DNA from: Paludisphaera mucosa
Lineage (GTDB): Bacteria; Planctomycetota; Planctomycetia; Isosphaerales; Isosphaeraceae
Length of the DNA: 64,000 bases
Direction: 5' to 3'
Assembly: GCF_029589435.1 (NCBI RefSeq)
Contig: NZ_JARRAG010000001.1
Location: 1,912,808 to 1,976,807 of the forward strand
The notes beneath the pieces are model-generated. The model was not told where the DNA came from. It did not search any database and saw only the letters and a list, made by a program, of their open reading frames with translations. This document shows positions 3,000 through 9,487 of the stretch, piece by piece. Position numbers and translations under genes: made by a program. Position 1 is the stretch's first letter; every line of letters starts with the position of its first letter.

Positions 3000-3644
3000 T
3001 CAGGGGGCCTCGGCGGCCTTGGGGGCGATGCGGATGTCGAGGCCGATGCGGGTGGTCCAGATCTCCCAGTCGTCGCGGCTCCAGCCGACGACGATGCCCG
3101 AGCCTTCGAGGCGGTCGAACATCTGCTCGACGTAGGCGGGGACGCGGTCCTCGTACTCGGTCGTGAGGTCGAGCTTGCGGCCGATGAGGCTGAAGAGGCC
3201 GCGGATCGACGACGGGCCCTTGTCGCGGATCCATTCCCGTCCCTCGGGCGAGGCGGGGTCGGGGCCTTCGAGCGTCAGGCCCATCGAGCGGAGCAGGCGT
3301 CCGAACTGGCCGAACCACGAGTCGCCGAACCCGAAGTAGTCGCGGTGGATGATGTGGACCTCGCCGCGGCGGACGATGGCGGCCTGGTAGACCGACTCCA
3401 GGTAGTTCTCGCCGTAGTCGGTCTGGAAGGCGATGTTCACCGCCTTGGCCAGGTGCTGGAGCGCCGCCGGGACGCCCACCTTGCGGGGGTCGACGTCGAG
3501 CCCCATGTCGCGCAGCTCGCCGGCCTTGCGGGCCGTGACCTGGCCCCCCGGCCCGGGCGTCGTCGCGACCGACACGCCCACCGGGACGTTCCGCGACGCG
3601 CCCTCCTGAGCCCCTCCGCCGCCCTGATCCGCCGATTTCGCCAT
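3000..3644 (-). CDS. Hypothetical protein, 214 aa
   Basis: I do not recognise this family. No signal peptide or membrane segment is visible. The first 30 residues are a low-complexity Gly/Ala/Thr stretch; the rest reads as a folded soluble protein with patches such as NIAFQTDYGENYLESVYQA, EVHIIHRDYFGFGDSWFGQFGRLL and GSGIVVGWSRDDWEIWTTRIGLDI. Codon use matches its neighbours. It is the third minus-strand gene after the Y-family polymerase and the SRAP-like gene, but a 95-base gap to the latter leaves open whether it shares their transcript. Its 3' end faces the EF-G paralogue across the palindromic repeat. Confidence 0.7.
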   Translation of the reverse strand: MAKSADQGGGGAQEGASRNVPVGVSVATTPGPGGQVTARKAGELRDMGLDVDPRKVGVPAALQHLAKAVNIAFQTDYGENYLESVYQAAIVRRGEVHIIHRDYFGFGDSWFGQFGRLLRSMGLTLEGPDPASPEGREWIRDKGPSSIRGLFSLIGRKLDLTTEYEDRVPAYVEQMFDRLEGSGIVVGWSRDDWEIWTTRIGLDIRIAPKAAEAP

Positions 3645-3739: not shown

Positions 3740-4207
3740 TCAGATGTGCTCGTCGATCAGGAGGGGCATGCGCGAGGACCGCGTCATGACCTGGTAGTAG
3801 TGGGTCGACGGCACGCAGATCATGTAGGCGACGGCGATCCCCCGCTCGTCGGGGACGAGGATCCCCCGGATCCCCTGGCGGATGCGGAACCAGACGCCGC
3901 GGTCGCAGCCCAGGGTGGCGGGGATGTCGACCCGGACCGCGCCGACTTGACGCCAGTAGCCCTGGTCGACGGTCGCCTTCCAGGTCCAGCCGGTGGGGGG
4001 CAGGAACCGGCTCTGGCCGCGGCCGTTGCCCCAGCGCACGACCTGGAGCCGGCCGTCGCGCAAAACCGGCAGCCGGGGGCGGCGGTCGCGGTACAGGAAG
4101 CGGACCTCGCCCTCGCCCCCCCGCTCGTGGCGGCGGCGGTCGAGGCCGTGGCGCCCGATCAGTTCCGTGGGCAGCTCGCTCCATGCCAGGGAGATTCCGA
4201 CGCACAC
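3740..4207 (-). CDS. Divergent SRAP-like (HMCES/YedK-related) protein, 155 aa
   Basis: The frame is open to an ATG at 4246, but starting at GTG 4207 gives Met-Cys-Val-Gly, putting a Cys at position 2. This is where SRAP proteins, which crosslink to abasic sites in single-stranded DNA, have their catalytic Cys. Further SRAP-like features: PVLRDGRLQVVRWGN resembles the conserved strand before RWGL, and the C-terminus THYYQVMTRSSRMPLLI resembles the terminal HDRMPVIL segment, although the His is not at its usual place. The Glu of the GFYEW motif is not obvious, so function is inferred, not shown. It lies 46 bases after the Y-family polymerase stop, which supports a joint role in damage tolerance. 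No clear ribosome binding site precedes the GTG. Confidence 0.6.
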   Translation of the reverse strand: MCVGISLAWSELPTELIGRHGLDRRRHERGGEGEVRFLYRDRRPRLPVLRDGRLQVVRWGNGRGQSRFLPPTGWTWKATVDQGYWRQVGAVRVDIPATLGCDRGVWFRIRQGIRGILVPDERGIAVAYMICVPSTHYYQVMTRSSRMPLLIDEHI

Positions 4208-4253
4208 GGTGGATACGACGCGACCGATGGATAGGGGGAGTTTCAAGGCTGGA

Positions 4254-5495
4254 TTAGAAGCACATCTTGTCGCGGACGTCGCAGATGTCGTAGGCGTTGG
4301 CCCCGTCGGCGTAGATCGCCGGCAGGTAGAGCGTGGCGGCGCTGCGGAGGGCGAACCGGCCGATCCGGTCGTTGATCTCGGCCTTGACCCGGGCCACGGC
4401 CTCGGCGCGGAGCCGGCGCGCCGGCGGGTCGAAGAAGGAGAGGGCGCTCTGGCCGCGGGGGGCGAGGTCCTCGGCGATCAGGTGCATGTGCGTGGCCGTC
4501 GCCCCCCGCGCCCAGGCCTGGCGGAGGCAGGGGCGGGCGGCCTCCAGCAGGACGTCGAACCGGTCGCTGGGGACCGCCAGCGTCCTCTGGCCGAACCCCG
4601 TGTGGCCGGTCTTGTACATGAGGAAGACCTTGATCCGGCCGGCGGCGACCTCGTGGTACCGCAGCTCCTCGATCAGGCGCTCGACGTTCCGCACCAGCCA
4701 GGCGTAGAGGAGCACCGGCTCGGAGGTCGCCTCGCCCAGGCTGCCGCCCCGCGAGAGCGTCTTGTGGGCCGGCCGCCGGCATTGGATCGCCTGGACCGGG
4801 TCGCCGTTGATCTCCCACCAGAGGGCCTCGCCCGAGGCCGTCAGCAGCCGCCGCACCAGCGCCCGGTCGGCGCGGGCCAGGTGCAGGCACGTGGTGATCC
4901 CCCAGGCCGACAGCCGCTCCGCCCGCCGGCCGGCGATCCCGGTGATCTCGGTCACGGGGAGGCCGGCCAGCAGCTCCTCCTCGGCGGCCGGGTCCAGCAC
5001 CGCGCGGGCCCCGGCGGGCTTGGCCGTGTCCGAGATCAGCTTGGCCAGCGTCCGCGTCCGGGCGATCCCCACCGTCACCGGCACGCCGACGCACTCCTCG
5101 ATGCGGTCCCGGAGCGCCTTCGCCAGGCCCTCGAACGTCTCGCCCCGGCCCGGCTCGGCCCGGAAGAAGAACTCGTCGATCGAGTAGTACTCGACCCGCC
5201 GCGAGGCGTCCTGCATCAGGCCCAGCATCAGCCGGCTCAGCACCTCGTACCAGCGGAAGTCGCGCTTGATGTAGATCCCCGACGGGCATTTCACCAGGGC
5301 CTCCCAGATCGGCTCGCCCGTCTTGACGCCCGCCGCCTTCATCTCGTAGCTCTTGGCGATGACGCACGCCCCCTGGTTCCCCAGCACGCCCACCGGCTTG
5401 TCCACCAGGAACGCGTCCCGCACCCGCTCCGCCGACACGTAGAAACAGTCCGCGTCGAGATGCCCCACCGCCGTCGCACGTCCGTCCATACCCAT
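4254..5495 (-). CDS. Y-family DNA polymerase (DinB/UmuC-type)
   Basis: Translesion polymerase of about 413 residues. Seen: catalytic motif HLDADCFYVSAERVRD near the N-terminus (first metal-binding Asp), SIDEFFF (Asp-Glu pair) with the tyrosine just before it, the VTVGIARTRTLAKLISD finger region, and a helix-hairpin-helix-like stretch GLPVTEITGIAGRRAERLSAWGI, followed by a little-finger region. The frame runs upstream to TTG 5531, but that part overlaps a good promoter, so the true start is ATG 5495 or ATG 5489 on a short or absent leader. It is not clearly Pol IV or UmuC; a KxxGCMLG-type UmuC tail is absent. It leads a probable two-gene unit with the SRAP-like gene. Confidence 0.88.
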   Translation of the reverse strand: MGMDGRATAVGHLDADCFYVSAERVRDAFLVDKPVGVLGNQGACVIAKSYEMKAAGVKTGEPIWEALVKCPSGIYIKRDFRWYEVLSRLMLGLMQDASRRVEYYSIDEFFFRAEPGRGETFEGLAKALRDRIEECVGVPVTVGIARTRTLAKLISDTAKPAGARAVLDPAAEEELLAGLPVTEITGIAGRRAERLSAWGITTCLHLARADRALVRRLLTASGEALWWEINGDPVQAIQCRRPAHKTLSRGGSLGEATSEPVLLYAWLVRNVERLIEELRYHEVAAGRIKVFLMYKTGHTGFGQRTLAVPSDRFDVLLEAARPCLRQAWARGATATHMHLIAEDLAPRGQSALSFFDPPARRLRAEAVARVKAEINDRIGRFALRSAATLYLPAIYADGANAYDICDVRDKMCF

Positions 5496-5502
5496 GGACA
5501 AA

Positions 5503-5531
5503 ACCATAGTTTGCACGTTTGAACAGGTCAA
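5503..5531 (-). promoter_or_regulatory. Candidate sigma-70-type promoter with tandem-octamer operator before the Y-family polymerase
   Basis: Read on the minus strand: TTGACC (5531-5526), a spacer of exactly 17 bases, then TATGGT (5508-5503). The spacer is almost filled by the tandem octamers GTTCAAAC and GTGCAAAC. Such a repeat between -35 and -10 is where a repressor such as LexA would block transcription. The position implies a transcript starting next to ATG 5495/5489. The repressor identity is inference. Confidence 0.5.
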
Positions 5532-7213
5532 GCTGAAAAGGCCCGCGGTCGCGAGAATCCCGGCCTCGCGGGGCGGATGCGACGAATGATCCAGAGATGA
5601 GCGTCCCCCGACGGGTGGCGGGCGAGCGTGTTGCGAGCCGCACCTCCCGCCCGCATGGCGATCCGCTCAGCGTCGGAATGCGCCCGTCGGGCCGCCGAGT
5701 TCCTGGAGCCGCTTCCCGACGGGCTCGAAAGGGTCCGAACTCAGCACGGCCCGCTTCGTCGCGGGATCGAGTTGGAGCAAAGGATACAACGGTACCGTGG
5801 CCCCGAATGGGTCCAGGGATGCCCTCGTGGCCGCCTCGATGGTCAGGCGAATCCGCTCGGGGGTGCCTTCGACGGGCGGGGGGATCTCCCAACGGACCAG
5901 GCCGTTCGCGTCGCCGATCATCAGGACGCCCCGGCCGTCGGGGGTGAACGAGACACTGCCCCCGGAGGATGTCGGCCAGGCCGGGCCCACCGGCAGGCCG
6001 AGGGATGCGTCCCAGAGCCGCACCGTGTGGTCCATCGAACTCGTGACCACGAGACGCCCGTCGGGGCTGAGGGCCGAAGAAACGACGACGTCATGATGAC
6101 GCAGGAGCGGAGTGACCGGTTCTCCCGTGCGGGCGTCGTAGAGCCTCGCGGCGTTCTCTTCGTCGTGACTGGCGAGCACCTTTCGCCCGTCGGCCGTGAA
6201 GGCCAGTTGTCGAATGCTCGAGGTCGACGGTGCCGTCCAGATCTTTCGGCTCGTCGTGGCGTCCCAGAGGGTCAATTGAAACGCACCCGTCGCGAAGGAC
6301 TTGCCGTCCGGGCTGAAGCGGGCGGCCCGGACCACGCCGGAGACCTCCGATTCCGGCCCGAGCGGTTGCCCGGTGGCCGTATCCCAGAGACGGGCGAACC
6401 CGTAGACGCCTCCGAGGCCACCTCCCGCGATCAGCAACGTCCGACCGTCGGGACTGAAGCGGATTCGCTCGATCGGTTGCGCGCGGAGGCTCGGGCCGGC
6501 GTTGCGCTGCTCGACCACGGGGGGCTGGGTCATCAACGGGCCGACGGCTTGCCCGGTGGCCGCGTTCCAGAGGCGGACCGCGCCCTGATCGTCGCCGGTG
6601 GCCAGCAGGTGACCGTCGGGCGAGAATGCGAGGGCCCTGATGCGGCGATCCATCGCCATCCGCGGGACCTGCTCGCGTCCTGTCGTCGTGTCCAGGATCT
6701 GGCAGTCATTCGACCCCACCACCGTGGCCACGCGCCGTCCGTCCGCGCTGAAGGACGGCTCCGGCGCCCGCTCGTAGCCTTGCTCGTATCCCTCGGTCTC
6801 GCGGGACTCACCGATGGCCTTGCCGTCGGACAGGTCGTACAGGCGGCAGAATTCCCGACGTTGCTCCGGGCGCAAGTACGTCCGGACCATCGTCCGCCCA
6901 TCGGGGGCGAAGGCCAAGCGATAGTATTCATCCCCGAATCCGGCACCAAGTGCGACGGGCTCCAGGCCCGGCGCCACATCGATGAGTTGCTTGTTCACGG
7001 AAGCGATGATATTACAATACTCGATCAGGACCTTGCCGTCCGGCAGGAACATCGGCCTCTCACCCCCCGTCATGGGCGCCACGGCTCCCAGGGGCTTGCC
7101 GGAGGGGACTTGCCAGATCCGGATCGGGCAACCGCCGGTGACGATCAACCGTCCGTCCGGCCGGAAGCAGGGCCGCTCGAACGACCCACCCTTGCTCATG
7201 TTGGAAATCCAGC

Positions 7214-9487
<2,274 letters not shown>

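Follow-up and report, generated by a model that had tools for sequence, protein, structure and literature searches.

The window, that is, the whole 64,000-nucleotide stretch of DNA analyzed here, contains two adjoining minus-strand genes that we read, on balance, as a damage-inducible translesion polymerase and its dedicated small subunit, a shortened SRAP-fold protein that would hold a UmuD'-like place in the complex. Our computations gave a predicted SRAP fold and a Met-Cys start for the small protein, its pairing with the polymerase, a conserved polymerase tail and a repeated change of Cys2 across the family. Both genes, a Y-family polymerase and, 46 nt downstream of it, a small protein of 155 aa, were confirmed in the window, with the following extents:

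4254–5531, minus strand: open frame of the polymerase, with its stop at 4254 and Pfam matches to IMS and IMS_C.
4254–5495, minus strand: Y-family DNA polymerase, likely started by ATG, with the catalytic Asp and Asp-Glu residues present.
3740–4207, minus strand: SRAP-fold small protein, 155 aa, with a GTG start, Cys2, Asp102, Ser144 and RMP at 146–148.

The small-protein gene opens GTG-TGC, i.e. Met-Cys, in agreement with the initial annotation, which had placed a GTG at 4207 with Cys directly after it, and the two patches singled out there, PVLRDGRLQVVRWGN and SRMPLLI, are both present in the translated 155-aa product. The open ATG reported for position 4246 reads TTG. Translation of the polymerase probably begins at residue 13 of the listed frame, an ATG at 5495, because a promoter-like TTGACC-17-TATGGT overlaps the first codons of the frame and the related loci share the later ATG. 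Behind the cassette, the frame 3000–3644 (minus strand) encodes a 214-aa protein with no Pfam match. At 5667–9487 (minus strand), a Ser/Thr-kinase-like frame (7214–9487) overlaps a WD40-repeat-like frame (5667–7943) in a different frame of the same strand, as judged by eye, and the two have the look of a single kinase-repeat gene that a frameshift or a sequencing error has broken near 7214–7300.

The start of the small protein was surveyed at 134 family loci, 133 of which gave a match; removal of 33 identical and 5 partial proteins left 95 distinct homologues. In the earlier homologue sets, the proteins were mostly 151–157 aa long, with a few at 137 or 161–194 aa. (The initial set used 66 of 70 loci, with L060, L061, L062 and L070 being partial.) Codon 1 was ATG in 65 homologues, GTG in 19 and TTG in 1, with some other codon in the remaining 10, and Cys2 was present in 74 of the 95 and missing in 21. 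Among the 74 Cys2 homologues, 29 have an in-frame stop within 20 codons upstream and no ATG, GTG or TTG between, and the residues of the window's frame upstream of 4207 show no conservation by eye. Because 74 of the 95 homologues have Cys2 and 29 of them lack an alternative start nearby, the sequence comparison indicates that the Met-Cys start is real, though not shared by every homologue. Of the two observations that the initial annotation had named as refuting its SRAP idea, a predicted fold unlike SRAP was not obtained (see below); as to the other, an upstream start of the homologues was not borne out, but homologues lacking Cys2 do exist.

The small protein has no match in Pfam, NCBIfam or PHROGs, and a search with the Pfam SRAP profile (PF02586), recommended in the initial annotation, came back empty for the own genome and for all 59 homologues at E values up to 10. 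An AlphaFold2 model built from a 59-sequence alignment reached a pLDDT of 93.4 and a pTM of 0.89. The top 8 chains retrieved with this model by Foldseek were all SRAP (E 1.0e-3 to 0.16, probability 1.00 to 0.72), with no match below E 0.001, and VIA-align returned 15 entries at Z 8.7–10.8 (124–141 residues aligned, rmsd 3.1–3.9), all of them identified as SRAP from their names or from a match to the SRAP profile, the next entry being at Z 3.3. The YedK and HMCES entries scored Z 9.0–9.8. Residues 2–153 of the model superpose on residues 2–169 of YedK (6nua), residue 2 on residue 2, and residue 153 falls on YedK 169 and on HMCES 219 (6oov), which places RMP on RMP. The structural overlay that had been proposed as a check thus points to a SRAP-like predicted fold, and the SRAP idea holds at the level of the modelled fold, where only SRAP structures match the model well. 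The C-terminal region that follows RMP in SRAP (about 55 residues) is missing, the protein ending 7 residues after Pro148. Searched against a viral structure library, the model gave no match below E 0.1.

At the sequence level, hhalign of the small-protein profile against canonical SRAP gave E 0.001 and a probability of 21%, over residues 103–153 only, and another comparison gave a probability of 4.5%. In a scan of 31,244 ungapped 10-column profile blocks against SRAP, RMP on RMP ranked best (z 6.5), RWG on RWG fifth and N-terminus on N-terminus 35th; these blocks are collinear with the structural match, but the scan is only suggestive, since off-register blocks also rank high (8, 15 and 19). 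The canonical SRAPs for the joint alignment were chosen by a Met/Val-Cys-Gly-Arg pattern (29 of 30 aligned, L079 omitted), and the invariant Cys2 of that alignment is a result of this selection. Taken with the modelled fold, the small protein is likely related to SRAP, with sequences far diverged. A single-sequence search of the PDB with the small protein yielded nothing below E 0.3. Beta-lactamase inhibitor protein II, which appeared in a PDB-sequence profile search (E 5.6e-5), was rejected as a chance match because the alignment spans 43 residues in which a WG...P pattern recurs, and its best single stretch reaches E 1.8.

Pairing of the two genes was assessed in 64 fetched loci (63 from genome contigs and 1 from a viral contig), 63 of which gave a tblastn match to the small protein. 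A polymerase, or a piece of one at a contig end, is found at 59 of these 63, in tandem with the small gene behind it in 53 cases and divergently in 6; several loci have overlapping stop and start, and one tandem pair is separated by a 2.7-kb gap. The other 4 had no polymerase in the surrounding DNA examined, which for one of them included only 240 nt upstream. Nearly all of the 63 contig loci are planctomycete-titled, and one is titled Candidatus Peribacteria. Across 99 related genomes, the own genome included, the small protein was matched in 59; with polymerase presence scored at E 1e-40, both genes occurred in 54, the polymerase alone in 2, the small protein alone in 5 and neither in 38. 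Both polymerase-only genomes hold fragments (a broken piece in G022, a part in G059), and two of the small-protein-only genomes (G041 and G044, the others being G043, G091 and G092) have polymerase pieces at contig ends. Both genes are also kept where they lie apart, by about 64 kb in G013 and about 52 kb in G030, or on separate contigs in G006. The association of a polymerase with a SRAP-like protein that the initial annotation had proposed is, by these counts, maintained across Planctomycetes.

A canonical SRAP gene lies near the pair at 5 of the 64 loci; among the genomes, this is seen in G067 (in the order polymerase, short protein, SRAP), on contig 3 of G042 and in G076; canonical SRAP had no match in the own genome or in five sampled congeners. 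A phylum-wide profile search found the small-protein family in 9 of 294 genomes, the own one included, a count not usable as a frequency because the window's own family is scarce among the rows listed. The plasmid and phage records searched for the small protein gave no match. One contig of a viral collection encodes the small protein (L164:6001–6465), and the 6 kb to each side of it gave no match to the polymerase. Some genomes have multiple small-protein matches, several of them broken (nine in G091, six in G042 and four in G070), in the manner of a gene that was multiplied and is now decaying.

The polymerase matches Pfam IMS (E 1.5e-33) and IMS_C (E 6.7e-13), and D26, D28, D119 and E120 (numbered in the listed frame) are 99% conserved in 76 distinct polymerase homologues; by its sequence, it is a catalytically intact Y-family enzyme. 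In NCBIfam, two Pol IV models (E 1.4e-48 and 2.6e-43) score ahead of the UmuC model (1.1e-42), all far below cut-offs. The polymerase is probably UmuC-like, judging by its tail and by a published module discussed below, although the NCBIfam scores do not favour UmuC over Pol IV. Two C-terminal features stand out by their conservation:

4254–4286, minus strand: C-terminal tail of the polymerase, ICDVRDKMCF, the last 10 residues plus the stop, delineated by conservation in 76 homologues.
4329–4385, minus strand: RecA-NT-like motif, residues 383–401, KAEINDRIGRFALRSAATL, delineated by conservation and by-eye likeness to the start of RecA.

Mean conservation over residues 416–425 is 0.82, compared with 0.65 overall, and C417, D418, K422, C424 and F425 are present in 97% of the homologues, giving a family tail of YDICDxxGKxCF in which the window polymerase has D421 where 93% have Gly. 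The Cys-Phe ending (97% of the 76, with a second Cys seven residues earlier) is also kept in lineages whose small partner lacks Cys2. In the upstream motif, K383, N387, G391, R392, F393, R396, S397, T400 and L401 are conserved at 95–99%, and the KAEINDRIGRFALRSAATL stretch looks, by eye, similar to the beginning of RecA from the own genome; following the description in PMC6511836, we infer that residues 383–401 form a RecA-NT-like motif. Pfam DUF4113 has no match in the polymerase. In modelled Pol V, the RecA-NT motif is described as binding RecA and the extreme C-terminus of UmuC as binding UmuD' (PMC11791011), and because of this the tail is, by analogy, likely a docking peptide for the small protein. 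The own genome encodes one further Y-family polymerase, DinB-like by eye. A search for S24-family proteins returned three matches there, LexA and two weaker ones elsewhere; no UmuD was seen among them, and no S24 gene lies at the cassette.

Upstream of the polymerase, two candidate control elements overlap:

5503–5531, minus strand: promoter-like stretch of the polymerase, TTGACC-N17-TATGGT, from reading the sequence and from a similar layout, by eye, in related loci.
5513–5525, minus strand: operator-like element TGTTCAAACGTGC, a candidate LexA site shared with the lexA upstream region.

The region upstream of lexA in the own genome carries TGTTCTGGCGTGC, the counterpart of the TGTTCAAACGTGC found upstream of the polymerase, and the 14-base form has one copy in the window, where 0.05 are expected by chance at up to 2 mismatches. 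A survey covered 30 lexA loci, 4 of them unreadable; of the 19 readable genomes belonging to the window's family, 11 have GTTC-N4-GTGC upstream of lexA, and of the 7 readable ones outside that family, none does. On the polymerase side, this element is clear only in the near relatives L001–L003, and the element shared with lexA was not seen in the recA upstream region of the own genome. More distant members have G[AT]AC-N4-GT[AT]C palindromes in 11 of 77 polymerase upstream regions, compared with a mean of 0.59 and a maximum of 4 in 200 rounds of a shuffled control, for a motif picked after viewing the sequences and counted on the same ones. LexA control of the polymerase is likely on this sequence evidence. 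Many genomes of the family to which the window belongs, among them those of L186, L191, L192, L197 and L204–L206, have a well-conserved element around TGTTCTCGCGTGCGCTAGACGACCTGTGTACATTAGC upstream of lexA, which could be the LexA operator of that group.

Regarding the active site, the chemistry of YedK is described as requiring Cys2 and Glu105, with His160 assisting ring opening; E105D is only modestly impaired, H160A is at least 10-fold slower, and at internal abasic sites the effect of N75A is only modest (PMC9436759). We counted the corresponding residues in a 59-row alignment comprising the window and 58 of 62 usable loci (L107, L108, L111 and L112 were omitted, of which L112 has no Cys2 and would be a 15th such row; L142 and L162 had been dropped earlier). 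Of its rows, 45 have Cys2, 52 have Glu or Asp at position 102 and 7 have His at 144, and 7 have all three; these seven complete members fall in a main branch other than that of the window, and three are Pirellulales records. The place of YedK His160 is taken by Ser144 in the window, and 52 of the 59 have no His there, in a register fixed by RMP through the best profile block, four MAFFT modes and the ends of the structural alignments.

The possible counterpart of Glu105 in the window is Asp102. Matching the strands of the model to what we take to be the SRAP strand order puts residue 102 at YedK Glu105; all four MAFFT modes set it opposite Gly127 of the canonical L089, with Glu105 falling after residue 75. 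The profile block with Glu105 at 102 ranks 203 over 10 columns, where the rival register, in one ungapped form, ranks 690; over 12 columns the two rank 1055 and 1098. Position 102 is thus slightly preferred by the shorter blocks and gains nothing from the longer ones. For a counterpart of YedK Asn75, the MAFFT and profile-block comparisons gave no firm register over residues 61–90. A model of fragment 1–104 (pLDDT 90.9), built for the Glu register, had no structural match at Z of 2 or more. On strand order, the Glu of the SRAP site may survive as Asp102.

The invariant residues of the small protein are R29, E34, F37, P47, W59, W85, W106, G112, Y137, Y138, M141, T142 and P148, a set that includes none of positions 2, 102 and 144. 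On a quick tree, in which 23 of 56 inner branches are weakly supported, Cys2 changed at least seven times, the direction of change left aside, with the polymerase neighbour retained. The small protein is thus not a canonical SRAP, having lost part of the site chemistry and the C-terminal region. Because the 14 of 59 homologues without Cys2 all still keep an adjoining polymerase, crosslinking cannot be the universal role of the family, nor can the whole family be kept for bond chemistry, should it have any. Of the damage-tolerance cassette envisaged in the initial annotation, the pair of a polymerase and a short, divergent protein of predicted SRAP fold stands, whereas its role as an abasic-site crosslinker is no more than possible. 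In lineages with Cys2, the small protein is possibly still able to bond abasic sites, because Cys2 and the acid at 102 are each widely kept, seven members have all three residues and the Glu-to-Asp change impairs YedK only modestly.

In the mechanism that we propose, the shortened SRAP domain would occupy the place of UmuD' in Pol V, docking on the C-terminal tail of the polymerase and acting together with it on a damaged template. In lineages with Cys2 and the acidic residue, the window included, the small protein may capture an abasic site at bypass via its N-terminal Cys; lacking the His, it would do so more slowly than YedK. The steps that we infer are the formation of a complex, docking on the tail, control by LexA and crosslinking of any kind. 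A more specific version, held only tentatively, casts the SRAP fold as a fixed polymerase subunit that, where Cys2 is present, captures abasic sites covalently and releases them for bypass and, where Cys2 is gone, serves as a structural, UmuD'-like part; if true, one family would show the step from a DNA-bonding enzyme to a polymerase subunit, with some members having Cys, Glu/Asp and His.

The small protein might instead be a purely structural or regulatory UmuD'-like module that forms no DNA bond even where Cys2 remains, which we regard as possible though doubtful. Such a role is consistent with the repeated change of Cys2 on the tree, with the polymerase beside every Cys2-less aligned member and with an invariant set that passes over the three site positions, most members having no His at 144. 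An idle site, however, would hardly be expected to keep Cys2, next to a residue 3 that varies, in 74 of 95 homologues, or an acid at 102 in 52 of 59. Independence from any complex seems unlikely to us: a free-standing abasic-site shield like YedK or HMCES, merely co-regulated with the polymerase, would agree with the predicted SRAP fold, and could be the only one of the own genome and its five congeners, which have no canonical SRAP match, but Cys2 is lost while pairing persists, and the canonical SRAP near the pair in G067, G042 and G076 argues against the short protein being a mere replacement.

We give very little weight to an autopeptidase switch, in which self-cleavage would expose Cys2 and the cleavage itself would signal damage. 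An autopeptidase role was once proposed for SRAP (PMC3765255), and both the Met-Cys start and the damage context would fit it; against this, Met alone precedes Cys2, YedK active-site mutants are reported to have all lost Met normally (PMC9436759), and Cys2 is absent from 21 of 95 homologues. Our preferred reading remains that of a translesion polymerase with a dedicated shortened-SRAP subunit.

A comparable pairing was already reported in 2026, when Timinskas et al. described UmuC-like polymerases specifically linked to SRAP-related proteins, proposed these partners as putative PolY-binding regulatory subunits and obtained AlphaFold complex models above threshold for all 11 module types (PMC12926913). 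Their module is probably the same or an overlapping family, or a near relation of the cassette, judging by its description; in the portions of that text consulted, we found no account of active-site loss, tail or operator. Canonical SRAP genes had been noted by Aravind et al. in 2013 beside UmuCD, DinB and ImuA-ImuB-DnaE2 genes (PMC3765255), and in the portions of the SRAP and PolY literature consulted, we found no description of active-site residue loss in the present family. Our analysis adds that the small protein starts Met-Cys, that its predicted fold is shortened, that Cys2, the acid and the His have been lost in a patchwork, that the polymerase tail is conserved and that the region upstream of the polymerase has an element in common with that of lexA. 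Abasic sites are dealt with in two contrary ways, SRAP proteins shielding them and translesion polymerases bypassing them, and a cassette joining a SRAP-fold protein to a polymerase makes their relation testable in a two-protein system, with the natural Cys2-less members as ready-made controls. The SRAP fold would also join the SH3-type fold described for UmuD'/YqjX and ImuB-C (PMC12926913) among the small subunits known for such polymerases.

Among known systems, E. coli YedK and human HMCES (PF02586) share with the small protein the predicted fold, over its entire length from residue 2 on, the Met-Cys start and the order of RWG then RMP. In contrast to these proteins of about 220–250 aa, the small protein has 155 aa and is missing the region after RMP, has no Pfam or NCBIfam match, carries Ser for His and belongs to a family in which Cys2 is not universal. 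The Pol V mutasome, UmuC-UmuD'2-RecA, resembles the cassette in its Y-family polymerase, a motif that by eye looks RecA-NT-like, the conserved C-terminal tail and the adjoining small gene, but here the partner is SRAP-like by predicted fold and not an S24-type UmuD, and the NCBIfam scores do not set the polymerase closer to UmuC than to Pol IV. The YqjW-YqjX(YolD)-RecA modules, as described in PMC6511836 and PMC12926913, likewise have a small subunit in the place of UmuD and a RecA-NT polymerase, with a subunit core that is SH3-like, unlike the predicted SRAP fold of the small protein described here.
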